Shown here piece by piece: positions 18,019 to 32,326 of a stretch of DNA of 64,000 nt (its first letter is position 1; each line of letters begins with the position of its first letter). The notes below the pieces were generated by a model. It was not told where the DNA came from. It ran no database searches and saw nothing but the letters and a program-made list of their open reading frames with translations. Made by a program: the position numbers and the translations under genes. Source of the DNA: Paracoccus fistulariae (lineage in GTDB: Bacteria > Pseudomonadota > Alphaproteobacteria > Rhodobacterales > Rhodobacteraceae); assembly GCF_028553785.1 (NCBI RefSeq), contig NZ_CP067136.1, forward strand, positions 1,364,001-1,428,000. The letters are read 5' to 3'.

Positions 18019-19544
18019 CCATGGCCGCTGATGCACCGCAAAATTCCGAAGTCGTCATGTCGGCGCGCAATGTGGCCAAATCCTATGGCCAGGTCCATGC
18101 GCTGAAGGGCGTGAATTTCGACATCCATCGCGGGCAGGTCACCACCCTGTTCGGCGAAAACGGCGCGGGCAAATCCACGCTGATGAAGATCCTGTCAGGC
18201 GTTATCCAGCCGACCAGTGGCCAGATGATCCTCGACGGTCAGCCGGTCAGTTTCGCCAATGCCAATGAGGCGCGCGACCGGGGCATCTCGATCATCCACC
18301 AGGAGCTGAGCCTGGCACCGAACCTGTCCGTGCGCGACAATATCTTCATGGGCCGCGAGATCATCGGCCCGGCAGGCGTCGATTTCGCCGAGGAAGAGCG
18401 TCAGGTCCGCGCCCTGATGGCCGAGCTGGAAGAGGATATCGACCCGCTGACCCCGGTCGAGGATCTGCGCCTTGGTCAGCAGCAGATCGTGGAAATCGCC
18501 CGCGCCCTGTCGGTGGACAGCCGCATCCTGATCATGGACGAACCCACCAGCGCGCTTTCGGCCAGCGAGGTCGAGGTGCTGTTCAAGGTGATCCGCGACC
18601 TGAATGCCAAGGGCGTCAGCATCGTCTATATCTCGCATCATCTGGAAGAGGCGCTGACCATCACCAATCATGCGGTCGTGCTGCGCGATGGCAATATGAC
18701 CGCCTATGCCCCCCGGTCCCAGATCGATCTGGAATGGATCGTGCGCAATATGGTCGGCGACAATTACGACCTCGGCTCGCCCCCGGACAGCGACAAGGGC
18801 GATGTGGCCCTGTCGATCCGCAATCTTTCGGTGCCCGATCAGACCGGACAGGATCTGGTGCGCGACCTGTCGCTGGACATCCGCGCCGGAGAGATCGTCT
18901 GCATATACGGGCTGATGGGCGCGGGACGGACCGAATTGCTGGAAACCTGCGCCGGGCGCCTGCGCCAAAGCAGCGGCCAGATCGTGCTGGAAGGGAAAGA
19001 GGTCTCGGACCTGTCGATTGCGCAGCGGATCGCGCGCGGGCTGGCGCTGGTGCCCGAAGATCGCCAGCGCGACGGTCTGGTCCAGACCATGACCGTGGGT
19101 CAGAACCTGTCGCTGGCCTCGATCGCCAGCTTTACCCGTGGCATCTTCACGCAGCGCAGCGCCGAACAGAAGCTGATCGACGACACCATCCGCGACGTGA
19201 CCATCAAGACCGATGGCGGCGGCGCGGCCATCGGATCGCTGTCCGGGGGCAACCAGCAGAAGGTGGTGATCGGCAAGATCCTGGCGACGAAACCGCGCGT
19301 GATCATGCTGGACGAGCCGTCCCGGGGCATCGATATCGGCGCCAAGGCCGAGGTGTTCCGACTGCTGGCCGAAGGCGCGCGCGACGGCCTGGCCGTCATC
19401 TATTCGACCTCTGAGGTCAGCGAATGCCTGTCCATCGCGCATCGCATCATCGTCATGCACAAGGGCCATATCTCGGCCGAATTCGATTCCAGCGTCTCGA
19501 AGGAAAAGATCATGGCCGCCTCGGGCGAATCCGTGGCTGCCTGA
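18015..19544 (+). CDS. eryE: CUT2 sugar/polyol ABC transporter, double ATPase, EryE-like
   Basis: A 509-residue fused double ATPase of the ribose/polyol (CUT2) class. The first domain has Walker A GENGAGKST, signature LRLGQQQIVEIARAL and Walker B ILIMDEPTSAL. The second has the degenerate Walker A GLMGAGRTE typical of this class, signature SLSGGNQQKVVIG and Walker B VIMLDEPSRGID. It energises import by the permease encoded downstream. The start overlaps the DUF2291 stop by 4 bases. Erythritol as substrate is inferred from divergence from eryABC and from similar loci in Rhizobium leguminosarum (eryEFG) and S. meliloti (multiple-polyol transporter). Confidence 0.88.
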   Translation: MTMAADAPQNSEVVMSARNVAKSYGQVHALKGVNFDIHRGQVTTLFGENGAGKSTLMKILSGVIQPTSGQMILDGQPVSFANANEARDRGISIIHQELSLAPNLSVRDNIFMGREIIGPAGVDFAEEERQVRALMAELEEDIDPLTPVEDLRLGQQQIVEIARALSVDSRILIMDEPTSALSASEVEVLFKVIRDLNAKGVSIVYISHHLEEALTITNHAVVLRDGNMTAYAPRSQIDLEWIVRNMVGDNYDLGSPPDSDKGDVALSIRNLSVPDQTGQDLVRDLSLDIRAGEIVCIYGLMGAGRTELLETCAGRLRQSSGQIVLEGKEVSDLSIAQRIARGLALVPEDRQRDGLVQTMTVGQNLSLASIASFTRGIFTQRSAEQKLIDDTIRDVTIKTDGGGAAIGSLSGGNQQKVVIGKILATKPRVIMLDEPSRGIDIGAKAEVFRLLAEGARDGLAVIYSTSEVSECLSIAHRIIVMHKGHISAEFDSSVSKEKIMAASGESVAA

Positions 19545-19564
19545 GACAAGAGCAAGGAAGAACC

Positions 19565-20605
19565 ATGTCGGATACCGCATCCACCACCGCCGCTGGCAAA
19601 AGCCGCAACTTCAGCATCGGTCGCCTGCTGCTGGAAGGCCGCGCCTTCTTCGCGCTGATCGCGATCATTGCCGTTTTCTCGTTCCTGTCGCCGAATTATT
19701 TCACCGTCAGCAACTTTCTGATCATGTCCAGCCAGGTCGCGATCTATGGCATCCTGTCCATCGGCATGCTGCTGGTGATCCTGAATGGCGGGATCGACCT
19801 GTCGGTCGGGTCGATCCTGGCGCTGTCGGGCGTCTGTGCGGGCGCGATGATGCAGGGGATCACGCTGGATTTCGCGGGGGTCATCCTCTACCCGCCGGTC
19901 TGGGCGGTGGTCATCCTGACGCTGCTGGTCGGCGCGGCTGTGGGCGCGCTGAACGGCGTGCTGATCGCCTTTTTCAAGGTGCCGCCCTTCGTGGCCACGC
20001 TGGGCGTGATGTATGTCGCGCGCGGGGTCGCGCTGCTGATGACCAACGGTCTGACCTATAACAACCTGCGCGGCAGCGAGGATCTGGGCAATACCGGCTT
20101 CGCCTGGCTGGGCTTCAACCGCCTGTGGGGCGTGCCGATTTCGGTCATCGTGCTGGCGGTGATCGCGATCCTGACCGGGCTGATGCTGTCGCGTTCGGCC
20201 TTCGGGCGCTGGCTTTACGCCTCGGGCGGGAATGAGCGCGCGGCGGATCTGTCGGGCGTGCCGGTGCGCCGCGTCAAGATCACCGTCTATACGCTGTCGG
20301 GGATGCTGTCGGCGGTGGCGGGGCTGGTGCTGGCCTCGCAGCTGACCTCGGCCGGGCCGACGGCGGGCATGACCTACGAACTGACGGCCATCGCCGCCGT
20401 GGTCATCGGCGGGGCCGCCCTGACCGGCGGGCGCGGCAATGTGCGCGGCACGATGCTGGGCGCCTTCGTGATCGGCTTTCTGTCAGCGGGCCTCGTCATC
20501 ATCGGCGTGTCCTCTTACTGGCAGACGGTCTTCACCGGCGCGGTAATCGTGCTGGCCGTGCTGCTGAACTCTTTGCAATATGGCGGCGGCAGCCGCCGGG
20601 GATAG
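19565..20605 (+). CDS. eryF: CUT2 ABC transporter permease, EryF-like
   Basis: A 346-residue inner-membrane permease with about 8-10 helices. It carries the NGGIDLSVGSILALSG segment (about 77-92) that is nearly invariant in ribose/polyol-type permeases, and the C-terminal IGGAALTGGRGNVRGTMLGA segment. The start at 19565 (MSDTASTTAAG) follows AAGGAAG, 20 bp after the ATPase stop; an in-frame start further upstream would lie inside the ATPase gene. It would form a homodimeric channel with the double ATPase. Substrate inferred as erythritol or related polyols. Confidence 0.88.
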   Translation: MSDTASTTAAGKSRNFSIGRLLLEGRAFFALIAIIAVFSFLSPNYFTVSNFLIMSSQVAIYGILSIGMLLVILNGGIDLSVGSILALSGVCAGAMMQGITLDFAGVILYPPVWAVVILTLLVGAAVGALNGVLIAFFKVPPFVATLGVMYVARGVALLMTNGLTYNNLRGSEDLGNTGFAWLGFNRLWGVPISVIVLAVIAILTGLMLSRSAFGRWLYASGGNERAADLSGVPVRRVKITVYTLSGMLSAVAGLVLASQLTSAGPTAGMTYELTAIAAVVIGGAALTGGRGNVRGTMLGAFVIGFLSAGLVIIGVSSYWQTVFTGAVIVLAVLLNSLQYGGGSRRG

Positions 20606-20621
20606 CGCGTTACGACATTCC

Positions 20622-20652
20622 CCGCCGGGCCACAGGCAACGGGGCCCGGCGG
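20622..20652 (+). other. Intercistronic hairpin between permease and binding-protein genes
   Basis: A perfect 10-bp GC stem, CCGCCGGGCC at 20622-20631 and GGCCCGGCGG at 20643-20652, with an 11-base loop and no T run. Such hairpins between importer genes and a binding-protein gene commonly protect or separate the mRNA so that the binding protein is made in excess. That role is inferred here. Confidence 0.6.
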
Positions 20653-20700
20653 ATCCTGTGCCACTCACGGCAGATCAACCAACCCAAGGGAGAGAGACTT

Positions 20701-21648
20701 ATGCTGAAAATGACGCGCCGCATGTTACTGGCCGCCGCAGCCTCGGTGCCGCTGCTGGCCAGTGCCGCCTCGGCCGAGGGGCTGATGACGATCATCGTCA
20801 ACGACCCCGCCAACCCCTATTGGTTCACCGAGGGCGAGGTCGCCAAGGCCACCGCCGAAGAGCTGGGCTATACCGCCAATGTCGCGGCCCATCGCGGTGA
20901 CACCAATACCGAAAGCACGCTGATCGACACGGCGATCACCAATAAATCCGCCGCCATCATTCTGGATCCCGCCAATGCCGATGGCTCGATCGGGGCGGTA
21001 CAGAAGGCCGTCGATGCGGGCATCCCGGTGTTTCTGATCAATGCAGAGATCAACCAGGAAGGTCTGGCCAAGGCGCAGCTTGTGTCCAACAACGCGCAGG
21101 GCGCGGCCCTTGGCGCGCAGGCCTGGGTCGAGGCCGTGGGCGACAGCGGCAATTACGTGGAACTGTTCGGCGCCCCGCCCGATAACAACGCCCAGACACG
21201 CTCGAACGGGTTCGAGACGGTGCTGAGCCAATATCCCGACCTGAACAAGGCCGGGCAAGAGGTCGCCAATTGGGACCGCACGCAGGGCTATCAGAAGATG
21301 CAATCGCTGCTGCAGGCCAATCCCGACATCATCGGCGTGATCTCGGGCAATGACGAAATGGCGCTTGGCGCCATCGCGGCGCTGAAGGAATCCGGCAATC
21401 TGGAGCAGATCAAGGTCGGCGGCTTCGACGGCTCGCCCGACGCGGTCGAGGCGGTGAAGGCCGGTGAGATGCAATATACCGTGCTGCAGCCCGTCGCAAT
21501 CTTTTCCGAGGCTGCGGTCCGTCAGGCCGATAATTTCATCAAGACCGGCGAAACCGGCGTCGATCAGGAGAAGCAGCTTTTCGACTGCCTGCTTATCACC
21601 GCCGACAATGCCGACAACTACACCTCGGCCTTCGTGCTGGAACAGTAA
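20701..21648 (+). CDS. eryG: Periplasmic polyol/sugar-binding protein, EryG-like
   Basis: A 315-residue type 1 periplasmic binding protein (ribose-binding fold). Its signal peptide MLKMTRRMLLAAAASVPLLA.. probably ends after ASA near residue 24. The mature protein starts with a strand followed by NDPANPYWFTEGEV, the usual ligand-contacting start of this fold, and keeps the hinge and VISGNDEMALGAI segments. It follows GGGAGAG and ends in front of a strong terminator. With the DUF2291 protein, ATPase and permease it makes a complete CUT2 importer opposite the ery operon. Erythritol is the inferred ligand; ribitol or L-arabitol are alternatives. Confidence 0.88.
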   Translation: MLKMTRRMLLAAAASVPLLASAASAEGLMTIIVNDPANPYWFTEGEVAKATAEELGYTANVAAHRGDTNTESTLIDTAITNKSAAIILDPANADGSIGAVQKAVDAGIPVFLINAEINQEGLAKAQLVSNNAQGAALGAQAWVEAVGDSGNYVELFGAPPDNNAQTRSNGFETVLSQYPDLNKAGQEVANWDRTQGYQKMQSLLQANPDIIGVISGNDEMALGAIAALKESGNLEQIKVGGFDGSPDAVEAVKAGEMQYTVLQPVAIFSEAAVRQADNFIKTGETGVDQEKQLFDCLLITADNADNYTSAFVLEQ

Positions 21649-21715: not shown

Positions 21716-22189
21716 TCAGGCCGCGTCGGCGCGGTCGTCTGCTGCCAGTTGCGCGTCCAGTTCAAGGACCTGGCGGACGGCTTCGGCAGCCTCGGCACCT
21801 TTTTTCACGAAATGCTCGCGGAAGAAGCCTGCCACGACCTCTTCTTCGCGATAGTGATGCGGCGTCAGCGAGACCGAGAAGCAGGGCACGCCGGTGTCCA
21901 GCCCGACATTCATCAGGCCCGTAACCACGGCACCCGCGACGAAATCGTGGCGGTAGATGCCGCCATCCACGACCAGCGCGGCGGCAACCACGGCGTCATA
22001 TTTGCCGGTCTGAGCCAGCTTTTTGGCCAGCAAGGGCATTTCGAACGCGCCCGGCACGTCGAAGGCATCGACAGCCGCGCCCGGGATCAGCTTCGGGACT
22101 TCTGCCATGAAACCATCATAAGCGCGGTCCACGGTGTCGGAATGCCAGCGCGCTTTGATGAAGGCGATACGAGGGGTTTTATTGGTCAT
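21716..22189 (-). CDS. ribH2: 6,7-dimethyl-8-ribityllumazine synthase, RibH2 type
   Basis: A 157-residue lumazine synthase of the type II (RibH2, decameric) class known from Brucella and other alphaproteobacteria. It makes the riboflavin precursor 6,7-dimethyl-8-ribityllumazine. The FDVPGAFEMP segment (about 43-52) and the GGIYRHDF segment with the active-site His (about 75-82) identify it; type I enzymes have a different sequence here. The start at 22189 (MTNKTPRIAF) has GGAAGG upstream. It stands alone, with no other riboflavin genes near, and its leader is an FMN riboswitch, so it is repressed by FMN as a single-gene unit. Confidence 0.93.
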   Translation of the reverse strand: MTNKTPRIAFIKARWHSDTVDRAYDGFMAEVPKLIPGAAVDAFDVPGAFEMPLLAKKLAQTGKYDAVVAAALVVDGGIYRHDFVAGAVVTGLMNVGLDTGVPCFSVSLTPHHYREEEVVAGFFREHFVKKGAEAAEAVRQVLELDAQLAADDRADAA

Positions 22190-22267
22190 CTTACAGGAAC
22201 CTTCCGTTAACGTCGTCAGGTCCCAGAGCACGAGCCTTGGCCGCCCCTTGGGATGGATGCGGCCTCG
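22190..22267 (-). promoter_or_regulatory. Expression platform between FMN riboswitch and ribH2
   Basis: The 78 bases between aptamer and ribH2 start contain an inverted repeat GGCCGC/GCGGCC (minus strand, about 22240-22264) shortly after the aptamer. There is no T run, which argues for control of translation or Rho-dependent termination rather than a simple intrinsic attenuator. Confidence 0.45.
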
Positions 22268-22390
<123 letters not shown>

Positions 22391-22487
22391 ATGACATAGA
22401 TAGCATTCCCCGGGGCCAAGTCAAAGGGCCTCTTGGCATTTTACCGCAACGGAACACCCGTTACGCCACAACCAAGCTCTGTCGCAG

Positions 22488-22552: not shown

Positions 22553-23152
22553 TCATGTTCGATCCGGTCCGGCGGCGGCGCGCCAGGCCAGTGGCAGCAC
22601 GACCGCCGCCAGCGCGATCTTGAACGCCGCGCCCGGCAGGAAGGGATAGAGGCCGAATTCCAGGATCGGCTTGTCCCAGCCCAGCACCGCGCCCAACCAC
22701 AGGACGCCGATGCCCAGAATCATGGCCGTGCCCAGAGCCATGGCGGCAAAGGTCGTCGCCAGATTGCGGCCCCATCCTCGCTGCGCCAGCCAGCCGACCA
22801 GCGCGGCCGACAGCACGAAGCCCAGCAGATAGCCCCCGGTCGGCCCCACCATATAGGCCAGACCGATGCCCTTTTCGGGCGTCCCGGCAAAGACGGGCAG
22901 ACCCGCCACGCCCTCGGCCAGATACAGCAGCACGGTCGCCGCCCCAAGCCGCCAGCCATAGGCCATGCCGATCACCAGCACCACGAAGGTCTGCATGGTC
23001 ATGGGCACGGGATAGAATGGCACCTGCAGCTTGGCCGAGGCCCAAAGCGCAAGGCTGCCCGCAATGGCCAGGATCACCTTGCGCGGCAGGGCCTGATCGC
23101 CACGCCACAGCCGGTCGGCCAGCGTCGCAGAATGAGTTGCTCGTATCGTCAT
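22553..23152 (-). CDS. bioY: BioY biotin transporter S-component
   Basis: A 199-residue membrane protein with about six helices and the BioY hallmark QVPFYPVPMTMQTF (about 43-56) that lines the biotin site, plus the GPTGGYLLGF segment. BioY takes up biotin alone or with an energy-coupling ATPase/T-unit; none is encoded here. It ends a nine-gene operon that contains a biotin carboxylase and a biotin carrier protein. This context indicates that its job is to supply biotin to that carboxylase. AAGGAA precedes the ATG. Confidence 0.93.
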   Translation of the reverse strand: MTIRATHSATLADRLWRGDQALPRKVILAIAGSLALWASAKLQVPFYPVPMTMQTFVVLVIGMAYGWRLGAATVLLYLAEGVAGLPVFAGTPEKGIGLAYMVGPTGGYLLGFVLSAALVGWLAQRGWGRNLATTFAAMALGTAMILGIGVLWLGAVLGWDKPILEFGLYPFLPGAAFKIALAAVVLPLAWRAAAGPDRT

Positions 23153-23182
23153 GGTCCGTTCCTTCCAGATAGCTGATGACAG

Positions 23183-24157
23183 TCAGGCCAGCGCGGCGCG
23201 CACGCGATCCAGCATGGCGGCGCGATCCTTGCGGGCGTCCAGCGCGGTCTGCATGTCGACCTTGACAAAGCGCGTCGGCGTATTGGGGGGCAGTTGCCCG
23301 ATCAGATCCATATCGGCCGAAATCACCGTGCCCAGCATGAAATATCCTCCGCCCGACACCGCGTCGCGATGCAGGACGATCGGCTCGGTCCCGCTGGGCA
23401 CCTGAATAGAGCCGTAGGGATAGCAGGCATCGGTGATATTGGACGGATCCGACCCGGCACCGAAGGGCGGCTCTCGATCCACGAATTCCAGCGGCGATCC
23501 GCCCTGGAAACGATAGCCCATGCGATCCGCCTCGGATGCGACCTTCCATGTCTCGTCAAAGAAGGTCCTGCCCGCCGCTTCGGTGATGCGATGCCAATAA
23601 AGACCGGGCACCACCCGCAGTTCTGCCGGACTGCCGGGGCTGCGGCGCAGAGCCGCGTGCAGGCTGCGGCCTTCGTCCACTCTACGTCTTGCCGCGCCTA
23701 TGGGCAGCACATCGCCCGCCTGAACCGCGCGGCCCTCGACACCGCCCAGCGCCCCGATGGCATAGGTCGAGCGACTGCCCAGCGTGGGCGGCGTGTCGAT
23801 CCCGCCCGAGATGGCGATATAGGCCCGCGCCCCCGATTTCAGATAGTCGAAGGACAGCACCTGACCGGCCTTCACCCTGATCGCGCTCCAGCTTTCCTTC
23901 ACCTCGCCATCGATCTTGGGCGGCAGGTCGCCGCCGGTCACGGCGATCACCGCATCTTCGCTGAATTCCAGTGTCGGTCCCATGAAGACACATTCCAGAC
24001 AGGCCGCACCTTCGTCATTGCCGACCAGAAGATTGGCGCTGCGCAGGGCAAAGCGGTCCATCGCGCCACCCATGGGAATGCCAAGATGATAGTAACCGGG
24101 GCGTCCCAGATCCTGAACAGTGGTCGCGAAACCCGCTGATACGACATTAACCGGCAT
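23183..24157 (-). CDS. pxpC: PxpC/KipA-like biotin-dependent carboxyltransferase subunit
   Basis: A 324-residue protein of the KipA/YbgK (AHS2) family. In E. coli PxpC is a subunit of ATP-dependent 5-oxoprolinase, and the same fold forms half of the carboxyltransferase domain of urea carboxylase. Typical segments are VQDLGRPGYYHLGIPMGGAMD (about 14-34) and AYIAISGGID. Its start overlaps pxpB by 11 bases and has GGAGG inside pxpB. Because biotin carboxylase and carrier genes lie in the same operon, it may transfer carboxyl groups rather than act as a plain oxoprolinase subunit; sequence alone does not decide. Confidence 0.88.
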   Translation of the reverse strand: MPVNVVSAGFATTVQDLGRPGYYHLGIPMGGAMDRFALRSANLLVGNDEGAACLECVFMGPTLEFSEDAVIAVTGGDLPPKIDGEVKESWSAIRVKAGQVLSFDYLKSGARAYIAISGGIDTPPTLGSRSTYAIGALGGVEGRAVQAGDVLPIGAARRRVDEGRSLHAALRRSPGSPAELRVVPGLYWHRITEAAGRTFFDETWKVASEADRMGYRFQGGSPLEFVDREPPFGAGSDPSNITDACYPYGSIQVPSGTEPIVLHRDAVSGGGYFMLGTVISADMDLIGQLPPNTPTRFVKVDMQTALDARKDRAAMLDRVRAALA

Positions 24158-25022
24158 AGAGAGCCTCCATCAGCTTGGCATTGGTGCCGTCGATATCCCT
24201 GTTGAAATCATCCAGCGAGAATTGCACGTCGCGGATGCGCGGCTGATAGGTATTCGCCTCGACCTCGGACAGGCAGCGGTCATATTCGGCGCGGTCGACG
24301 GGTTTCCATTTCACGATATCGCCGGGTTTGAAGAAGACCATGAAATCGCTGAGATAGCTGGTCCTTTGTGTCGGGTCATAGATCGGCATGGGCGTCACCC
24401 CGAACATCTGATAGCCGCCTGCCCCGCGCACCGAATAGACGCAGGAAAAGCAGCCACCATAGCCCACCGTCAGCCTGGGCGTATCGGTGCGCGGGCGCAG
24501 GTATTTCGGCACCTGAATCTGCCGGTCGCGGTCGACCATCTGATAGAGGAACGGCAGACCCGACACGAAGCCCACCATCGACACGAACCAGGGCGCGCCC
24601 GAATGCGCGGCGATGAAATCCTGCACGCTGTCATAGCCGTTGATCCGCGCCGCATATTCGATATCGGTCGCCTCCGGATCCTGATGCCGCTCGCGAAAGC
24701 GCATCAGCGTTTCATGCGTCCAGGGGTCCTGATAATAGACCGGGATCTCGATAATCCGGGTGTTCAGAACCGGATCGGCCTGCGCGGCGGTTTCCTCGAT
24801 CTGTTGCAGCCTTGTCATCAGATCGTCGGGGTGGATCACATCCGGGTCGAACTTGATCTGGAAAGAGGCATTCGCGGGACAGATCTCGGTGATCCCGTCA
24901 ATGCCCGCCTCGCGGATGGCATTGGTCATCGAAAGGGTCTTGAAGAATGCCTCCAGCGACATTTCCTCGCTGACCTCGACAAAGATATGTTCGTCCGCAC
25001 CAAAGGTGAATCTCGATGTCAT
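24147..25022 (-). CDS. pxpB: PxpB/KipI-like carboxyltransferase/oxoprolinase subunit
   Basis: A 291-residue AHS1 (KipI/YbgJ) family protein, partner of the following pxpC product. The conserved core is FVSMVGFVSGLPFLYQM (about 145-161) followed by VPKYLRPRTDTPRLTVGYGG. At 291 residues it is longer than E. coli PxpB (about 218) or B. subtilis KipI (about 240), with extra sequence mainly in the N-terminal part. It overlaps accC by 4 bases (ATGA) and pxpC by 11, so the three proteins are made in a coupled way. It is the second half of a urea-carboxylase-like carboxyltransferase or of a 5-oxoprolinase. Confidence 0.87.
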   Translation of the reverse strand: MTSRFTFGADEHIFVEVSEEMSLEAFFKTLSMTNAIREAGIDGITEICPANASFQIKFDPDVIHPDDLMTRLQQIEETAAQADPVLNTRIIEIPVYYQDPWTHETLMRFRERHQDPEATDIEYAARINGYDSVQDFIAAHSGAPWFVSMVGFVSGLPFLYQMVDRDRQIQVPKYLRPRTDTPRLTVGYGGCFSCVYSVRGAGGYQMFGVTPMPIYDPTQRTSYLSDFMVFFKPGDIVKWKPVDRAEYDRCLSEVEANTYQPRIRDVQFSLDDFNRDIDGTNAKLMEALYAG

Positions 25023-26404
25023 GCGGCATTCCCTTTCTTGTCTGTCAGGGTTGCAGAATGGCTGTCCAGCCAGGGTTCAAGCCATTTGGTGTGCAGCTTG
25101 CCTGCCTGAACCTCTGGATCTTCGGCCAGCGCCAGAAACAGCGGCGCGGTCGTCTTCAGCCCGTCAAGGCGAAGCTCGGTCGCGGCGCGTTTCAGCCGGG
25201 TGATCGCCGCGTCGCGACTGTCGGCATGGACGATCAGCTTGCCCAGAAGGGAATCGTAGAAAGGCGGGATCTGATAGCCCTGATACAGCATGTGATCGAA
25301 GCGGACCCCCGGCCCGCCGGGCAGGCGCATATCGCCGACCACGCCCGGAAAGGGCATGAAGTTATTCGACGGGTCCTCGGCATTGATGCGCACCTCGATC
25401 GCGTGACCGGACACTGTGATGTCATCCTGTGACACCGACAGGGCCGCGCCGCCCGCGATGCGGATCATTTCGGCGACCAGATCAATGCCGGTGATCGCCT
25501 CGGTCACCGGATGTTCGACCTGAATGCGGGTGTTCATCTCGATGAAATAGAAATCGCCGGTCTGGTCGTCATAGAGATATTCGACCGTGCCCGCGCCGCG
25601 ATAGCCCACCGATTTCGCCAGTGCCACGGCCGAGGCGCACAGCGCATCCCGCACCGACGCGGAAAGGGCCGAGGACGGCGCCTCTTCCCACACCTTCTGC
25701 CGACGACGTTGCAGCGAACATTCGCGTTCAAAGCAATGCACGACATTTCTGCCGTCGCCCAGCATTTGCACCTCGATATGGCGGGCGCGTTCGATCAGCT
25801 TTTCCAGATACAGACCGCCATCGCCAAAGGCGGCCTTCGCCTCGGCCGCGGCCTGCGGGGCCAGCTTGGCGAAATCCGCAGCGTTGTCAGCCACGCGGAT
25901 GCCGCGACCGCCACCGCCTGCCGTGGCCTTGATCATTACCGGAAAGCCGATCTGCGCGGCCAGTTCGGCAGCCGCCTGCAGATCATCAACCACGCCATCG
26001 CTGCCGGGCACGGTGGGGACATTCGCCGCCTGCGCCGCCTTGCGGGCCGAGGCCTTGTCGCCCATCGCGCGGATCATGTCGCCGGTCGGCCCGACAAAGG
26101 CGATGCCCGCAGCTGCGACCGCATCCGCGAATGCGGCATTCTCGGCCAGGAAGCCATAGCCCGGATGGATGCCATCCGCGCCTGTGTCGCGCGCGGCCTG
26201 CAAGACGGCCTCGGCGTTCAGATAGGATTTCGCAGCGGCGGGCGGTCCAATCTCGACCGCCTCATCCGCCATCTCGACGGCCAGCGAATTCGCGTCGGCG
26301 GCGCTGTAGACCTGCACCGTGCGGATGCCCAATTCGCGGGCGGCGCGATTGATCCGCACCGCGATCTCGCCGCGATTGGCGATCAGAAGTTTGGTCATAG
26401 CCAT
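25019..26404 (-). CDS. accC: Biotin carboxylase (AccC-like) of the pxp operon
   Basis: An ATP-grasp biotin carboxylase of about 461 residues: KLLIANRGEIAVR at the N-terminus, glycine-rich ATP loop GGGGRGI (about 165-171), and catalytic/metal segment EMNTRIQVEHPVTE. It carboxylates biotin on a carrier protein with ATP and bicarbonate. I chose ATG 26404 because AGGTGG lies 8 bases before it; ATG 26398 and GTG 26416 are alternatives. It follows accB directly. Lying between the carrier gene and pxpB/pxpC, it is probably dedicated to this system and not the fatty-acid-synthesis AccC. Confidence 0.92.
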   Translation of the reverse strand: MAMTKLLIANRGEIAVRINRAARELGIRTVQVYSAADANSLAVEMADEAVEIGPPAAAKSYLNAEAVLQAARDTGADGIHPGYGFLAENAAFADAVAAAGIAFVGPTGDMIRAMGDKASARKAAQAANVPTVPGSDGVVDDLQAAAELAAQIGFPVMIKATAGGGGRGIRVADNAADFAKLAPQAAAEAKAAFGDGGLYLEKLIERARHIEVQMLGDGRNVVHCFERECSLQRRRQKVWEEAPSSALSASVRDALCASAVALAKSVGYRGAGTVEYLYDDQTGDFYFIEMNTRIQVEHPVTEAITGIDLVAEMIRIAGGAALSVSQDDITVSGHAIEVRINAEDPSNNFMPFPGVVGDMRLPGGPGVRFDHMLYQGYQIPPFYDSLLGKLIVHADSRDAAITRLKRAATELRLDGLKTTAPLFLALAEDPEVQAGKLHTKWLEPWLDSHSATLTDKKGNAA

Positions 26405-26416
26405 CGGCCCGCCCAC

Positions 26417-26659
26417 CTAGATCTCAAGCTCGGCCAGCGGCTGGCCGGGCATGATGGCGTCCTCATCCTCGACCAGAAAGGCGGTGATGGTGCCCGCCTG
26501 ATCCGCCGTCACCTCGGTGAAGCTTTTCATCACCTCGACCAGACCGATTACGTCGCCCGCTGCGACGGTATCGCCGACCTCCTTGTAATTGGGCTGATCC
26601 GGGGCTGGCTTTCGGTAAAAGACGCCGGGCAAGGGTGATCGGATTTCTGCTTTAGCCAT
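26417..26659 (-). CDS. accB: Biotin carboxyl carrier protein (AccB-like, short form)
   Basis: An 80-residue single-domain biotinyl carrier. The biotinylation motif is LVEVMKSFTEV, with Val in place of the usual Ala in the EAMKM motif and the Lys retained. It lacks the long N-terminal part of fatty-acid AccB (about 150 residues in total), so it is little more than the biotinyl domain. The start at 26659 (MAKAEIRSPLPG) overlaps the end of pxpA by 8 bases. It would shuttle the carboxyl group from the AccC-like protein to PxpB/PxpC. Confidence 0.9.
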   Translation of the reverse strand: MAKAEIRSPLPGVFYRKPAPDQPNYKEVGDTVAAGDVIGLVEVMKSFTEVTADQAGTITAFLVEDEDAIMPGQPLAELEI

Positions 26660-27422
26660 GGGTCGCTCCTGTGATGTCGGTTTGGGTCGCCGTGGGATCG
26701 GCCAGATAATCGGCCAGCGCCGCGCGAACGGATTGCGCGATGGCCAGCACATTCGGCGTGTCGGAATGAATGCAGATCGTTTCGACGCGCACCGGGTTTT
26801 CGACGCCTCCGGGGCTTAGCACCGTGCCGTCACGCACGGCGCGCAGGGCCTTTTGGGCCACGGCGTCGGGGTCCAGCTTCGGATGCTGGCGTGTGATCAG
26901 CAATCTGCCCTGATCGTCGTAATCCAGATCGGCAAAGAATTCCGGCGTGAACTGCAGCCCACGCGCGGTATAGATTTCCTCGTGCAAGGTGCCGCTGAGA
27001 CCGAAGATCGGCACCCCAAGATGCTGGGTCGCATCGCAGATCGCATGGGCGATATGGTCCTGACGCGCGGCCATCCCGTATAACGCGCCATGCGGTTTGA
27101 CATGGCCGAGCCGCAGCCCGGCGATGGACAGGAATTCTTTCAGCGCACCGATCTGATAGATGACGATATTGGCCATCTCGGCGCGGTCGATCTTCATCTC
27201 TCGCCGTCCGAAGCCGGGCAGGTCGGGCAGCGAGACATGGGCGCCGATGCTGACCCCGTGGCGCTTGGCCAGTTCGACCGTCTGGCGCATGTGATTGGGG
27301 TCGGATCCGTGAAAGCCGCAGGCGATGTTGGCCTGGGTGATATAGGGCATGATCGCCTCGTCATCCCCCATCGTGTAGAGGCTGAAGCTTTCGCCCATGT
27401 CGCAGTTGATGTTGACGGCCAT
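26652..27422 (-). CDS. pxpA: 5-oxoprolinase subunit A (PxpA, LamB/YcsF family)
   Basis: A 256-residue LamB/YcsF protein: NINCDMGESF at the N-terminus, NIACGFHGSDP (about 32-42), GAHVSLPDLPGFGRR and VKPHGALYG. PxpA proteins, with PxpB and PxpC, open 5-oxoproline to glutamate using ATP. The start at 27422 has AAGGAG at proper spacing. It lies between the permease gene and accB, in the same operon as pxpB/pxpC but separated from them by the two biotin genes, which supports joint action of all five proteins. Confidence 0.92.
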   Translation of the reverse strand: MAVNINCDMGESFSLYTMGDDEAIMPYITQANIACGFHGSDPNHMRQTVELAKRHGVSIGAHVSLPDLPGFGRREMKIDRAEMANIVIYQIGALKEFLSIAGLRLGHVKPHGALYGMAARQDHIAHAICDATQHLGVPIFGLSGTLHEEIYTARGLQFTPEFFADLDYDDQGRLLITRQHPKLDPDAVAQKALRAVRDGTVLSPGGVENPVRVETICIHSDTPNVLAIAQSVRAALADYLADPTATQTDITGATHG

Positions 27423-27444
27423 TTCGGCATCTCCTTGAACGGTC

Positions 27445-28473
27445 TCAGTCTTTGAGCGTGGCGACATAGCGAAGGCGGATCTGGTCGGCGATCACGGCAA
27501 GGATCAGCAGCGCCCCCAGAACGACCGTCTGCAGATAGGATTCGATCCGCGCCAGGTTCATGCCGTTTTCGACCAGCCCGATGAACAGCGCCCCCAGGAT
27601 CACGCTTTCCAGCCGCCCCACCCCGCCGCGCAGGCTGACCCCCGCGATGACACAGGCCGCAATCGATTGCAGCGGCATGGAAGAGCCGATATTCGCCTCG
27701 CCCGTATCCAGACGCGCGGTCAGCAGCATCCCCGCGACGGCTGCCAGCGCGGCGCACAGCACATAGGTCCAGAACAGGGTGGCGCGGGTATTGATGCCCG
27801 ACAGCGCGGCGGCCTTGGCATTGCCGCCAACGGCATAGAAATAGCGGCCAAAGGGCGTGCGATACAGGACCACATAAAGCAGCAGCGCGATCAGCCCGGC
27901 GACATAGATCGGCGTCGGCACGCCCAGCCAGGTACCAAAGCCGAAGATATCGCCAAAGGCCTGCGGCATGCCATAGACCGGCACGCCTCCGGTCAGGAAC
28001 AGCGCGATCCCGAAGCCCACCGAGGTCATGCCCAGCGACATCATGAAGGGCGAGACGCCAAAGAACGCCACGCCGATGCCGTTGCAGAGCCCGATCAGCG
28101 TGCCTGCGGCGATGCCTGCAAGGCAGCCGATGGCGATGGCCAGACCCGCAGCCTCGGGCATGGCGGCATAGGTCGCGGCCATGGTCAGCGCCCCCACGAC
28201 CGAGGTGACGGCCAGCGTGGTCCCGACCGACAGATCGAAACCGCCGGTCAGCAAGGCCAGCATCTGCCCCATGGACACGATAGTCAGGTACACCGATTGC
28301 CGCAGCACGTTCATCAGGTTCTTCGCCGTCAGGAAATTCTCGGACATCATCGCGAAGACCAGAACGGCAATGGCCAGCAGGAAAGGCAGGATGCCCAGCC
28401 TGACGAACAGGCGCTTTGGCAGATCGGTCAGGGCGCGATCCGGGCGCGGGATGGCTTTTGCGGGGCTCGTCAT
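27445..28473 (-). CDS. CUT2-type ABC transporter permease of the pxp operon
   Basis: A 342-residue permease with about 8-10 membrane helices and the family segment GGFDLSVGTTLAVTS (about 77-91), plus VIAGVSLRGGVGRLESVILGA near the C-terminus. It works with the preceding double ATPase (overlapping by one base, TAATG) and the TorT-like binding protein. The CUT2 class usually carries sugars, but the binding-protein type here is unusual, so the substrate may not be a sugar. It lies 22 bp before pxpA in the same transcript. Confidence 0.9.
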   Translation of the reverse strand: MTSPAKAIPRPDRALTDLPKRLFVRLGILPFLLAIAVLVFAMMSENFLTAKNLMNVLRQSVYLTIVSMGQMLALLTGGFDLSVGTTLAVTSVVGALTMAATYAAMPEAAGLAIAIGCLAGIAAGTLIGLCNGIGVAFFGVSPFMMSLGMTSVGFGIALFLTGGVPVYGMPQAFGDIFGFGTWLGVPTPIYVAGLIALLLYVVLYRTPFGRYFYAVGGNAKAAALSGINTRATLFWTYVLCAALAAVAGMLLTARLDTGEANIGSSMPLQSIAACVIAGVSLRGGVGRLESVILGALFIGLVENGMNLARIESYLQTVVLGALLILAVIADQIRLRYVATLKD

Positions 28474-30038
28474 TATGCGGCGTCCCTTTCGAAAAAGTTG
28501 GAGAGCAGGTTTTCCTCGGTGATCTGATCGCCGGTCAGCTCTGCCTGAACGCGACCCTGATGAAAGACATAGGCCCGGTTCGACAGGTTCAGGATTTCGG
28601 GCAGATCGGACGAGATCAGCAGGATCGCAGCCCCCTTGGCGCATAGTTCGGCGATGAAGTCGTAAATCGCCGCGCGGGTGCCGACATCGACGCCGACCGT
28701 GGGTTCATCAAAGACAATCAGGTCGAAATCGCGGGTCAGGCTACGGGCCAGCATCAGCTTTTGCTGGTTGCCGCCGGAAAACTGGCCCGCATCACGCTCG
28801 ATCCGGCATGGTGACAGGTTCAGCCGTCTGGCCAGATCGCCCGCGATGCGCGCCTCTGCCTTGCGGTCCAGAAAGGCGCCGTTGCGAAAGGGCGAAATAT
28901 CCAGCGAGGCGAGCGAGATATTTTCCCGCGCAGGCCGCAGCAGCATCAACCCGTCGCCATGCCGGTCAGAGGTCAGATACAAAAAGCCACGCCGCAGCAT
29001 GTCACGGGTGCGGGGTCTGTCGATCCGCTGACCCTTGAAGCTGATCGACCCGCTGTCGATGCCAAGCGCACCAAAGCAGGCACGGGCGAATTTCGATTTG
29101 CCCGATCCGACAAGCCCGGCGAGGCCCACGATCTCGCCCCGGCGCAGGGCGACAGACGCGCCCTTCACCGCCCCGCCTGCCGTGCGAAGATCCTGCACAT
29201 CCAGAACGATCTCACCGGGTCGGAAGGTCAGCTTGGGAAAGATCTGGCCGACGACCCGTCCGGTCATCAGGCTGACCAGCTCCTCCTCGGAGGTGGTTCG
29301 GGCGTCCACCGTATCGATGAACCGGCCATCGCGCAGCACGGTGATGCGATCCGCGATCTGCCGGATTTCCGCCATGCGATGCGTGATATAGATGATGCCG
29401 ACGCCACGGGCCTTCAGCCGCGCGACCAGACGGAAAAGCTGTTGGGTTTCGTGATGGGTCAGCGAGGCTGTCGGCTCATCCAGGATCAGGACCGAGGGTT
29501 CGGTTCTGAAGGCCTTGGCGATCTCGACCATCTGCTGTTCCGCCCGCGTCAGGCGGTCAATGCGCGCCATCGGGTCCAGATGGAACTCCAGCGCGTCAAG
29601 AATTTCCTGCGCCTTGCGGCGCTGCGATTTCGGTTGCAAGAGGCCGCGCCTGACCGGCTCGGCCCCCAGAAAGATATTCTCGGCCACGGTCATCTGCGGG
29701 ATCAGCGAGAATTCCTGAAACACCGCAGAGATGCCCAATTCGCGGGCCTGATGCACGCTGTTCAGCGCGACCGGGCTGCCATCGAACAGGATGCGGCCAG
29801 CCGTGGGCGAATTCGCCCCGGCCAGCAACGAAATCATGGTTGATTTCCCGGCCCCGTTTTCGCCGAAGAGCACATGCACCTCGCCAGCGCGCAGATCGAA
29901 ATTCACATCGTCCAGCGCGCGAATGCCCGGATAATCCCTGGTCAGGCCGACGGTCTGCAACAGCGGATAAGGATGTTTCTGACCCGCGACCGCTGCCGAT
30001 TTCGGGCGCGGGCCGACCCCGTATTGCCCGGACATCAT
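28473..30038 (-). CDS. CUT2-type double ATPase of the pxp operon
   Basis: A 521-residue fused double ATPase. Domain 1 has GENGAGKST, the unusual signature LTRAEQQMVEIAKA and Walker B VLILDEPTASL. Domain 2 has GLVGSGKSKFA, signature FSGGNQQKLMLARSL and Walker B LIVFDEPTVGVD. Unlike most CUT2 ATPases, the second Walker A keeps a canonical GSGKS, so both sites may bind ATP productively. The ATG at 30038 overlaps the binding-protein stop (ATGA); a second ATG follows immediately. Confidence 0.9.
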   Translation of the reverse strand: MMSGQYGVGPRPKSAAVAGQKHPYPLLQTVGLTRDYPGIRALDDVNFDLRAGEVHVLFGENGAGKSTMISLLAGANSPTAGRILFDGSPVALNSVHQARELGISAVFQEFSLIPQMTVAENIFLGAEPVRRGLLQPKSQRRKAQEILDALEFHLDPMARIDRLTRAEQQMVEIAKAFRTEPSVLILDEPTASLTHHETQQLFRLVARLKARGVGIIYITHRMAEIRQIADRITVLRDGRFIDTVDARTTSEEELVSLMTGRVVGQIFPKLTFRPGEIVLDVQDLRTAGGAVKGASVALRRGEIVGLAGLVGSGKSKFARACFGALGIDSGSISFKGQRIDRPRTRDMLRRGFLYLTSDRHGDGLMLLRPARENISLASLDISPFRNGAFLDRKAEARIAGDLARRLNLSPCRIERDAGQFSGGNQQKLMLARSLTRDFDLIVFDEPTVGVDVGTRAAIYDFIAELCAKGAAILLISSDLPEILNLSNRAYVFHQGRVQAELTGDQITEENLLSNFFERDAA

Positions 30039-31108
30039 TCCACCTGAAAGACGGGCTTGAAACCGTCCGGCGCCAGGGTCGAGGTCGGATCGAAACCTTC
30101 GACATTTTCGCCGGTGACCACGAACAGCGCCGGGCCGACATGTTTCAGCAGATCCTCTCCTTCCAGGGCACGGACCGCCTGATCGACAGCGATGCGGCCC
30201 TGAACGGCGGTGGAGTCCGTCGGCGCGCCAAGGATCTGACCGCGCCTGATCCCCTGATAGACGCCGGGCGTGAAATAATAGGCGGCGACCTTGATCTGGT
30301 CGGTCAGCCCCTGCGCGCGCAGGATCGGGACTGCGGCTTCGGCCGTCACGGCGGTGCCGACGATATAATCCAGATCGGGATTTGCGGCGATGGTGTCCTC
30401 GACCAGCTTCGCCTGAACCTCTTTGCCGGTATCGCCGTATTTCGTCTCGACCAGTTCGATCGCGCTGCCCTGAATCGCCTCGGCAAAGCCTGCATTTCCG
30501 GCCTCGACCCAGCCTGCACCGGCGGGACCGGGGAACCAGGCGACCTTGACGGGATCGCTCCCGGCGGGATGCAGCCCGGCCAGGTAGTCGCCGGTCTTGG
30601 CGCCCATTTCGCCAAAGGATACCAGCGATTTGGCCGTCAGCGCGGGCGAGGAAATCCCGTTGATCACATCAATGACCGGGATGTCGCGGGACCGGACCTC
30701 TTCGACCACATTGTTCAGCCCATCCAGCGAGATCGCCCCGATGATCACCGCATCCGCGCCGGCGGCCACGCAATCCTCGATCTGCGAAATCTGCTTGTTC
30801 AGCTCGGTATATCCGCCGGCCTCGACGACCTGCATCCTGACGCCCAGACGCTTGGCCTCTTCGGTCACGCCGTAATCGACGCCCAGCCAATAGGCATCCT
30901 TCATATGCGGAAAGGACACGCAGATATCCCAGGCCTGAGAGGCCTTTTCCAACGGCGTGTAATCGGCGTCGCGGCGCGGGCTGTCCATGTCGAAGGCAGG
31001 CTGCCAGACCTGCACCGGATAGGGATACCAGCCTTCTGCGGTGGCGGCGGCGACCGGCAGCGCCGCAAGGGCCGCTGTCATCGTCAGCCGAAACATGGCC
31101 TTGTTCAT
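30035..31108 (-). CDS. TorT-like periplasmic binding protein, first gene of the pxp operon
   Basis: A 357-residue periplasmic protein with a signal peptide (MNKAMFRLTMTAALAALPVA.., cleavage near ATA-EG at about 24). The mature part resembles TorT, the periplasmic trimethylamine-N-oxide sensor partner of TorS: a SFPHMKDAYWLGVDYG segment, then VVEAGGYTELNKQISQIEDC, AGADAVIIGAIS and VGTAVTAEAAVPIL. No TorS, TorR or TMAO reductase gene is present. It is instead followed at ATGA overlap by an ABC ATPase and permease, so it most likely acts as their solute-binding protein. GGGAGGAAG precedes the start at 31108. Ligand unknown; an amide, lactam or methylamine-like compound would fit the context (inference). 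Confidence 0.82.
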   Translation of the reverse strand: MNKAMFRLTMTAALAALPVAAATAEGWYPYPVQVWQPAFDMDSPRRDADYTPLEKASQAWDICVSFPHMKDAYWLGVDYGVTEEAKRLGVRMQVVEAGGYTELNKQISQIEDCVAAGADAVIIGAISLDGLNNVVEEVRSRDIPVIDVINGISSPALTAKSLVSFGEMGAKTGDYLAGLHPAGSDPVKVAWFPGPAGAGWVEAGNAGFAEAIQGSAIELVETKYGDTGKEVQAKLVEDTIAANPDLDYIVGTAVTAEAAVPILRAQGLTDQIKVAAYYFTPGVYQGIRRGQILGAPTDSTAVQGRIAVDQAVRALEGEDLLKHVGPALFVVTGENVEGFDPTSTLAPDGFKPVFQVE

Positions 31109-31390
31109 TGTCTTCCTCCCTTGGGTGCCCACGTTCCGGGGCGTGACGCTTGCTGCGCCTTTCAGGCAACGGCGAAGGCCCGCCGCAGCACCTTTGAGAG
31201 TGAGAGCGGATGACATTATTGTAAAATTCAAATATTTTCTATGTGATATCGCTTTATAAGATATGATCGCCTGAACGCCGGGCGGGCTTTTCGCCCGAAA
31301 ACCGGACGAACAGTCAGCGGAGCACGCGAAAGGGCGGAATAACTGCAGACGAGAGCAGCTAAAAACAGATAAGGGATATCCGAAAAACAG
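31109..31390. promoter_or_regulatory. Divergent promoter region of the pxp operon and its LysR gene
   Basis: A 282-bp region with a clear AT-rich core at about 31210-31265. It contains the dyad ATATC (31246-31250) and GATAT (31260-31264) with 9 bases between, of the size expected for a LysR-type site. It lies roughly 130-145 bp from both start codons. Assignment to the adjacent regulator is inference. Confidence 0.5.
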
Positions 31391-32326
31391 ATGGAGCCGA
31401 CATTCCGCCAGATTCGCTATTTCATCGCCGCAGCCAATGCGGGCCAGCTTTCCAAGGCCGCGATGGAGATCAATGTCTCGCAATCGGTGATCACCACGGC
31501 GATCAAATCGCTGGAAGAGATGGTCGGCACGCCGCTGTTCGACCGCCATTCCGGCGGCGTCAGGCTGACCTATGAGGGCAATCTGTTCCTGGATCACGCC
31601 CGCCATATCGTCGAATCCGTGGAAGAGGCGATCCGCAGTCCGCGCCGGATCAGGGATGATATTCGCGGCACGATCAATCTGGCGATGTCCTATACGGTCG
31701 CGGGCTATTTCCTGCCCAGCTATCTGGCCCGCTTCGCCCGGGCCTTCCCACAGGTGCAGATCAACCTGTCCGAAACCGACCGCGCCAATATCGAAGAGGG
31801 GTTGGTGACCGGGCGCTTTGATCTGGCCGTGATGCTGACCTCGAACCTCGTGAACCATGAAGAGCTGTCGCATGACGTGCTGATCCGCAATCGTCGGCGC
31901 CTGTGGGTGAATGCGCATCACAAATTCCTGACGCGGCCCTCGGTCTCGCTGCAGGATATCGCGACCGAGCCCTATATCATGCTGACCGTGGATGAGGCCA
32001 GCAACACTGCCCAGCGATACTGGAACCGCACGCCTTACCGGCCCAATGTCACGTTCAGAACCTCCTCGGTCGAGGCGGTGCGCAGCATGGTCGCGAACGG
32101 AATGGGGATCTGTATCCTGTCGGATCTGGTCAGCAGGCCGTGGTCGCTTGAGGGGCGGCGGGTCGAGCGTCTGGACGTGACCGAGACCATTCCCACCATG
32201 GATGTCGGGCTGGTCTGGGCACATGCCCGGACGCAATCACCCGCGACAAGGGCCTTTGTCGAATTCATGCAACTGGCCATCAGCGTGAACGACCATCAGG
32301 CCTCTGTCCATTCCAGTCTTGACTGA
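31391..32326 (+). CDS. LysR-type regulator divergent from the pxp operon
   Basis: A 311-residue LysR-type regulator. The winged helix-turn-helix occupies about 1-62 (FRQIRYFIAAANAGQLSKAA, with SQSVITTAIKSLEEMVG as recognition part), and the effector-binding domain follows from about 90. It is divergent from the nine-gene operon, the standard arrangement for a LysR regulator of the genes opposite. Its co-inducer is presumably the imported compound or a breakdown product. Two features of the family can be expected: autorepression and activation of the operon on ligand binding. Confidence 0.88.
   Translation: MEPTFRQIRYFIAAANAGQLSKAAMEINVSQSVITTAIKSLEEMVGTPLFDRHSGGVRLTYEGNLFLDHARHIVESVEEAIRSPRRIRDDIRGTINLAMSYTVAGYFLPSYLARFARAFPQVQINLSETDRANIEEGLVTGRFDLAVMLTSNLVNHEELSHDVLIRNRRRLWVNAHHKFLTRPSVSLQDIATEPYIMLTVDEASNTAQRYWNRTPYRPNVTFRTSSVEAVRSMVANGMGICILSDLVSRPWSLEGRRVERLDVTETIPTMDVGLVWAHARTQSPATRAFVEFMQLAISVNDHQASVHSSLD

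Follow-up and report, generated by a model that had tools for sequence, protein, structure and literature searches.

In the urea amidolyase of K. lactis, K1605 probably acts as the general base in carboxyl transfer, and the K1605A exchange is reported to lower activity severely (PMC5770610). Split carboxyltransferase (CT) halves of unstudied function were already noted in 2011 (PMC3199775). In A. nidulans, lamA/lamB serve the use of lactams (2-pyrrolidinone), and their regulator also controls the omega-amino acid genes gatA and gabA (PMC8016842, PMC3412718); ycsF of B. subtilis, a PxpA gene, has been related to lamB (PMC3412718). Caprolactamase requires ATP and bicarbonate (PMC8453981), and so does OplAB, for which gamma-butyrolactam was not an effective substrate, with trace activity (2023, PMC11033972); these two requirements provide a precedent for bicarbonate-dependent lactam activation. 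Here, we describe a nine-gene operon of Paracoccus fistulariae that combines genes named after 5-oxoprolinase (pxpA, pxpB and pxpC) and acetyl-CoA carboxylase (accB and accC) with an importer and bioY. It lies in a 64,000-nucleotide stretch of contig NZ_CP067136.1 (assembly GCF_028553785.1, forward-strand positions 1,364,001 to 1,428,000), referred to below as the window and numbered from its first letter, with all nine genes on the (-) strand, spanning 31111 to 22553. No description of this gene set was found in the accessible parts of the open-licence literature, which does not prove its absence from print.

Our observations concern gene content, the conservation of catalytic residues, the position in the tree, linkage, naturally occurring fusions and neighbouring genes; from them we infer complex formation, carboxyl transfer, the order of the steps and the substrate. 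The operon probably encodes a lactam carboxylase of a split, urea-carboxylase-like kind, which is coupled to a ring hydrolase of the PxpA/LamB family, with 2-pyrrolidinone as the leading substrate. In this scheme, an importer of the CUT2 type would bring in a small cyclic amide; AccC would, with ATP and bicarbonate, carboxylate the biotin on the short AccB; PxpB and PxpC, as a urea-carboxylase-type carboxyltransferase, would move CO2 to the lactam amide, giving an N-carboxylactam; and PxpA (LamB/YcsF fold) would hydrolyse the activated ring, with the carbamate decarboxylating to an omega-amino acid. From 2-pyrrolidinone (gamma-butyrolactam), the product would be gamma-aminobutyric acid (GABA), convertible to succinate via GABA transaminase and succinate-semialdehyde dehydrogenase (SSADH). 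A biotin-dependent complex is well supported as a prediction and the opening of a lactam ring appears likely, and we predict 2-pyrrolidinone as the substrate with about evenly balanced confidence. Tentatively, the system might be the missing gamma-butyrolactam enzyme, in which biotin-dependent N-carboxylation of an unstrained lactam and opening by LamB/PxpA would feed GABA catabolism in alpha- and gammaproteobacteria. An earlier note on this DNA, made from the sequence alone, had proposed that a split biotin carboxylase, KipI/KipA-type halves and PxpA act on a lactam-like compound, and this idea is supported by the dedicated accBC genes, their linkage and the neighbouring genes described below.

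The products of pxpB (24147..25022, (-) strand, PF02682) and pxpC (23183..24157, (-) strand, PF02626) are predicted carboxyltransferase subunits of the CT_C_D and CT_A_B kinds, respectively, and of the urea-carboxylase type. PxpB gave 70.8 bits with the equivalog model TIGR00370 (cut-off 145.55) and PxpC 220.2 bits with NF045499 (cut-off 500). PxpB was aligned as 106 rows of the window's own type (window type), 18 urea carboxylases, 5 rows of a type about 35% identical to the window protein (35% type) and 32 canonical PxpB. Lys occupies position 173 in 106/106 window-type rows, 18/18 urea carboxylases and 4/5 rows of the 35% type, and Arg takes its place in 32/32 canonical PxpB; position 204 is Tyr in every window-type and urea carboxylase row and Trp in all 32 canonical ones. 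In the alignment, Lys173 corresponds to Lys1012 of 3va7 and hence to Lys1605 of 5i8i, the numbering of which is shifted by 593 as judged from the aligned ranges. In PxpC, Asp243 is present in 99% of the window-type rows and in all urea carboxylases, with Ser in 32/32 canonical PxpC, and 21 columns are common to the window type and urea carboxylase only, as against 13 common to the window type and canonical PxpC only.

In a tree built from the two halves together (81 rows), all 32 PxpBC fell on one side of a branch with a support of 100/99, opposite the window type, urea carboxylase and the 35% type; some canonical rows are long-branched, and none crosses to the other side. The window type forms its own clade (100/100, stem of 1.25 changes per column), which lies on the same side of a 100/100 branch as urea carboxylase, yet apart from it and not inside the urea carboxylase clade. 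Three rows of the 35% type join urea carboxylase and two stand outside. Judged from their sequences, PxpB and PxpC are thus members of a separate clade on the urea-carboxylase side and not the PxpBC of ATP-dependent 5-oxoprolinase; the assignment of both proteins to PxpABC in the earlier note was not borne out, given the missed equivalog cut-offs, the Lys/Tyr pair and the tree split. A structure model of PxpB (28 sequences) had a mean predicted local distance difference test score (pLDDT) of 59 and was set aside. Loci L093-L097 (genomes G421 and G081, one of which has four copies) contain a further CT group with identities of 27-35% to the window PxpB, and 4/5 of its members have Lys at position 173.

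The genome of P. fistulariae contains six biotin carboxylase C-terminal domains, one of them in a housekeeping accB-accC pair (L010 858-2739). The window AccC (25019..26398, (-) strand, ATG at 26398; PF00289, PF02786 and PF02785) is 54.7% identical to its housekeeping counterpart. It passed PRK12833 (757.4 bits, cut-off 686) and PRK08591 (676.4, cut-off 597) and fell just under the cut-off of the accC model TIGR00514 (615.7 against 626.5). The AccB-like biotin carrier (26417..26659, (-) strand, PF00364), of 80 aa and with the motif E-V-M-K-S-F, passed PRK07051 (128.1 bits, cut-off 87) and missed the biotin carboxyl carrier protein (BCCP) model TIGR00531 (69.5, cut-off 115.2). Ten catalytic positions, which we take to be those of E. 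coli biotin carboxylase, are unbroken in 98/98 AccC rows, and the biotinyl lysine of AccB is kept in 99/99 rows (rows without the full region, eight for AccC and seven for AccB, including L090 and L091, were left out). The window accB and accC are dedicated genes and not the housekeeping pair; the reservation of the earlier note that they might be the only copies, serving acetyl-CoA carboxylase, fails because of the separate accB-accC at L010.

The PxpA/LamB_YcsF protein (26652..27422, (-) strand, PF03746 291.8 bits), the predicted ring-opening subunit, passed the subfamily models NF003814 (273.7, cut-off 226) and NF003816 (219.3, cut-off 213) and stayed under the cut-offs of three equivalog models (NF003813, NF003815 and NF003812). 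Thirty-four positions are common to E. coli PxpA, the copy in a second locus of the same genome (L009) and 97% or more of 101 rows.

PxpB proteins 69-100% identical to that of the window were found in 12/190 genomes of the class, and ones 61-100% identical in 16/398 genomes of the phylum. Among the matches listed, the next were at 35% (in two genomes, one of which has four copies), followed by urea carboxylases (23-31%) and canonical PxpB (23-36%), and this drop in identity among those matches marks the window-type PxpB as a discrete family. In 80 named loci, the best 80 of at least 594, with PxpB 71-87% identical to the window's, PxpB was accompanied by AccC and PxpC in 80/80 and by AccB and a PxpA in 76/80 each; the four loci without AccB and PxpA (L159, L163, L201 and L208) have little contig ahead of PxpB. 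Altogether, 105 loci were collected, including three duplicates (L147, L167 and L207, equal to L068, L070 and L073), which were removed for the 102-locus counts and retained in the 106-row PxpB/PxpC alignments and the 80-locus counts. In evenly drawn genomes, 21 of 25 window-type loci have both AccC and AccB adjacent; the exceptions are L083 (AccC at the contig end), L071 (a 4.7 kb contig, AccB only) and L090/L091 (neither). The conserved core is pxpA-accB-accC-pxpB-pxpC, and the arrangement of the operon is not due to chance. The co-occurrence of accB/accC with pxpABC, proposed in the earlier note as a check, was thereby confirmed, and the additional TorT-like binding protein expected there has a relative (39-82% identical) in 41/80 named loci. 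The gene set is real and widespread, and it is probably misnamed.

Natural fusions join the same parts. A four-part query in the order of urea carboxylase returned 77 proteins, of which about 30 (in clusters) fuse AccC to a window-type PxpB, the PxpB part being 60-73% identical to the window protein, and one protein fuses parts of PxpA, AccB, AccC and PxpB. As several of the AccC-PxpB fusions share length and score, they may represent a handful of independent events, and some could be gene-calling artefacts. This search, aimed at a fully fused window-type form, gave AccC-PxpB fusions and urea carboxylases, and no fungal-named match among the 77, only some of which are named. Other chains seen were PxpC-PxpB with the Lys-Tyr motif (P0158 and P0163) and PxpB-PxpC-biotin carrier without it (about 730-760 aa; P0171, P0173 and P0178), two relatives of the latter being named from Thermomicrobiales metagenome-assembled genomes.

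Genes surrounding related loci point to the substrate. Locus lengths were up to 15 kb for the canonical controls (19 kb for L009) and up to 20.9 kb for the others, and neighbouring open reading frames were called by a simple rule on the GC content of third codon positions (GC3), so that some were missed or overlong. At identities of at least 30%, CapA (Hydantoinase_A-type) was present in 28/102 window-type loci and CapB in 26/102, and at identities of at least 50% GABA transaminase (compared with the L151 copy) was found in 8/102 and SSADH in 6/102; each of the four was found in 0/31 canonical loci. Three of the three GABA transaminases tested (L133, L144 and L151) scored over TIGR00700, and four of four dehydrogenases (L069, L131, L133 and L151) over TIGR01780, none of them over the stricter PRK11241. 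In four loci the transaminase gene, gabT, lies directly behind the operon and on its strand: in L144 it begins where pxpC ends, in L143 bioY is followed by gabT and the SSADH gene, in L151 importer genes are followed by gabT with the SSADH gene behind it, and in L184 importer genes are followed by gabT. A gabT-SSADH pair is found 1.2 kb after bioY in L131 and 5 kb downstream in L133, GABA genes are upstream of lysR in L176 and L196, and an SSADH gene alone is behind bioY in L069. With two gabT copies per genome, about 1 of 102 loci would carry the gene by chance; the corresponding Poisson value is 1e-5 (1e-3 with four copies), and the comparison of neighbouring genes between window-type and canonical loci gave a Fisher value of 0.0003, the Poisson and Fisher values being rough because related genomes are not independent.

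CapA falls into two sorts. Thirteen loci carry the one that is at least about 70% identical to the CapA of L174, and 4/4 tested proteins of this sort (L174, L155, L197 and L202) passed the caprolactamase CapA cut-off of 1000 bits, the CapB of L174 also being over its cut-off; two tested proteins of the other sort (34%) reached 513-535 bits only. Amidase neighbours occur in 7/80 and PuuE-like deacetylase neighbours in 11/80 named loci. The earlier note had suggested that the substrate is perhaps a lactam, amide or cyclic imide, and the GABA-catabolism and caprolactamase neighbours of related loci narrow this to a small lactam, with 2-pyrrolidinone as the first candidate. In the genome of P. fistulariae, GABA transaminase and SSADH score over their cut-offs and are encoded outside the operon; a frame resembling GABA transaminase, with a single in-frame TAG, adjoins an SSADH gene at G000 C1:3288794-3291502.

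Several observations weigh against this reading. No gabT, SSADH gene or capAB is present in the window's own operon. GABA genes occur in just 9/102 loci (gabT in 8), most loci being without GABA or CapA genes, and at the looser identity of 30% the transaminase is found in 9/102 window-type loci and in 1/31 canonical ones (L122). The 28 CapA loci and the 9 GABA-gene loci show zero overlap, so substrates may differ between lineages; moreover, with caprolactamase-type genes adjacent, a second lactam opener could be superfluous, or the system may act on something else. The usual cargo of CUT2 importers is sugars. Loci L090 and L091 (one genus) have window-type PxpABC with the catalytic lysine and LysR, and no linked accBC; the closest AccC in their genomes is at no more than 53%, so that these loci would have to rely on the housekeeping pair or else function without biotin. 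Their pxpA-pxpB-pxpC genes adjoin phosphate transporter genes, and nine neighbours tested gave no pathway hint. Finally, a biotin carboxylase is encoded near Arg-type PxpB in 5/30 canonical loci (L115, L119, L121, L123 and L125), Arg-type PxpB/PxpC homologues share PDB entry 9yx5 with AccA3, and in locus L009 of the P. fistulariae genome a fused PxpBC of the Arg type stands beside a fused biotin carboxylase-BCCP. Since Arg-type PxpBC is thus also found with biotin carboxylases, Lys173 marks the family and does not prove the mechanism.

Locus L009 (6703-12897; C1:1940000-1959000) is a second biotin-linked Pxp locus, comprising genes for PxpA, fused PxpBC (526 aa, Arg type) and a fused biotin carboxylase-carrier (626 aa), with a divergent GntR-type gene; it also encodes what we take to be an NRAMP-like transporter and a YcsI/DUF1445-like protein. 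Related loci are L115 (same set), L121 and L123. Its product is perhaps a biotin-dependent 5-oxoprolinase. Such associations, along with the family names and the two subfamily cut-offs passed by PxpA, are what one would expect if the window operon were itself an ordinary 5-oxoprolinase (PxpABC) operon, with AccB and AccC as accessories or adding a bicarbonate step on 5-oxoproline. This we regard as unlikely: PxpB and PxpC score below half of their equivalog cut-offs, the Lys/Arg and Tyr/Trp splits are exceptionless and agree with the tree, the genome holds a separate canonical-type PxpA and PxpBC locus, and GABA and caprolactamase neighbours are unfit for glutamate formation. An argument from the subunit sizes of P. 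putida 5-oxoprolinase, which seemed to match biotin carboxylase-BCCP, fused PxpBC and a trimer of PxpA, was dropped because the published values disagree (64, 51 and 82 kDa in PMC8453981; 75 and 63 kDa in PMC6061476).

It is considerably more plausible, although still the lesser possibility, that the same mechanism acts on another substrate, such as a larger lactam (2-piperidone or caprolactam), a cyclic ureide or imide, or an N-substituted lactam, a view that overlaps with the one preferred here. The CapA-type genes, with every tested member of the sort nearer to that of L174 passing the caprolactamase equivalog cut-off, the amidase and deacetylase neighbours and the several different importers of related loci would suit such compounds, but the sole complete downstream pathway directly behind the operon is that of GABA transaminase and SSADH. 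Given that a biotin carboxylase, BCCP, CT_A_B and CT_C_D are all present as four genes, with the catalytic lysine and on the same side of the tree, the operon might alternatively encode a split urea carboxylase. We consider this very improbable, as no allophanate hydrolase in the genome is over its cut-off (best 187.6 against 511.05), PxpA is linked instead and the proteins form a long-stemmed clade of their own. Hardly credible is the suggestion, prompted by the NCBI names of AccB and AccC, that these serve acetyl-CoA carboxylase only and were placed here by chance; it is contradicted by the AccC linkage in every named locus, and the housekeeping pair and the AccC-PxpB fusions also speak against it. 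The lactam carboxylase coupled to PxpA, with 2-pyrrolidinone as the first candidate, is therefore the interpretation that we prefer.

The remaining genes of the operon encode its importer and BioY. The importer comprises a TorT-like substrate-binding protein (SBP) of CUT2 type (30035..31111, (-) strand, PF13407), a double ATPase (28473..30038, (-) strand, PF00005 in two stretches) and a permease (27445..28476, (-) strand, PF02653), i.e. the Peripla_BP_4, double ATPase and BPD_transp_2 parts of a CUT2 sugar ATP-binding cassette (ABC) importer. The SBP passed the TorT model PRK10936 (414.5 bits, cut-off 200) and missed TIGR02955 (290.9, cut-off 310), its nearest solved chain being 4yhs_A (482.7 bits), and the closest models of the double ATPase are AraG/RbsA, with 25/25 models shown scoring under their cut-offs. 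As one TorT model is passed and the partners are CUT2-type, the name of TorT-like ABC importer used in the earlier note is fair. The gaps between successive genes are -4 bases (SBP/ATPase), -4 (ATPase/permease), 22 (permease/pxpA), -8 (pxpA/accB), 18 (accB/accC), -4 (accC/pxpB), -11 (pxpB/pxpC) and 30 (pxpC/bioY); the computed coordinates and Pfam identities agree with the one-directional order of nine genes, the five overlaps and the divergent lysR given in the earlier note. Hydantoinase_A/B subunits were not found in the operon by Pfam, and the genome has one partial Hydantoinase_A match (1-173 of 291).

BioY, a biotin transporter subunit (22553..23152, (-) strand, PF02632 129.5 bits), is also encoded in 19/80 named loci, 18 of which have the gene in the operon's orientation. 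Its presence as a mark of biotin auxotrophy was not supported, the genome's bioB being over its cut-off. The LysR regulator (31391..32326, (+) strand, PF00126 and PF03466) has a relative in 67/80 named loci, divergent in 67/67. Between lysR and the SBP gene, intergenic conservation indicates a candidate regulatory block, TTGAATTTTACAA (31219..31231, (-) strand), of the form T.GTATTTTACAAT, the named columns of which are at least 85% conserved across 21 aligned intergenic regions. The exact 13-mer patterns tried for it are present in just 2/21 of these regions, and no exact LysR box was found when looked for there. Just beyond bioY, an FMN (flavin mononucleotide) riboswitch (RF00050, 117.8 bits, 22264-22394, (-) strand) precedes a probable riboflavin synthase gene, the end of which lies near 21716, and past this gene, on the opposite strand (19424-21648), there is another sugar-type (RbsC-like) permease and binding-protein pair, both identities being read from the sequence.

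Gamma- and delta-lactams resist hydrolysis. If the proposed function is correct, the biotin-dependent route would put the urea-carboxylase transferase to a new use and account for a large group of '5-oxoprolinase' genes adjoining 'acetyl-CoA carboxylase' genes, the name '5-oxoprolinase subunit B/C' being misleading for this family. The system might also be of value for nylon-4 monomers and pyrrolidone solvents, and the old lam genetics of A. nidulans would become testable in bacteria with five soluble proteins.

Compared with known systems, the operon resembles PDB entry 9yx5 (AccA3 with allophanate hydrolase subunits 1 and 2; the open-licence literature searched yielded no publication on the entry) in bringing together a biotin carboxylase-carrier and PxpB/PxpC homologues, but the PxpB homologue of that entry has Arg where the window protein has Lys173. 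With the PxpABC 5-oxoprolinases of E. coli, B. subtilis and C. glutamicum it shares a PxpA family hydrolase and a CT_C_D/CT_A_B pair, and it differs from them in the missed PxpB and PxpC cut-offs, in having Lys and Tyr where those have Arg and Trp, and in its dedicated biotin carboxylase and carrier. Caprolactamase CapAB/OplAB is alike in the ATP- and bicarbonate-dependent lactam opening proposed here, and CapA-type genes are neighbours of many related loci, but its protein families are unrelated to those of the operon and biotin is not used. The parallel with A. nidulans lamA/lamB, a fungal system, is limited to LamB, a relative of YcsF/PxpA. Urea carboxylase and urea amidolyase (Oleomonas; K. 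lactis KlUA) likewise combine a biotin carboxylase, BCCP, two CT halves and a general-base lysine, and in them N-carboxylation precedes hydrolysis, as we propose for the operon. Unlike these enzymes, the operon has four separate genes, which gave 22.7 to 529.2 bits each with the single-chain model TIGR02712 (cut-off 1303.85), forms its own clade and has PxpA/LamB rather than allophanate hydrolase as the partner.

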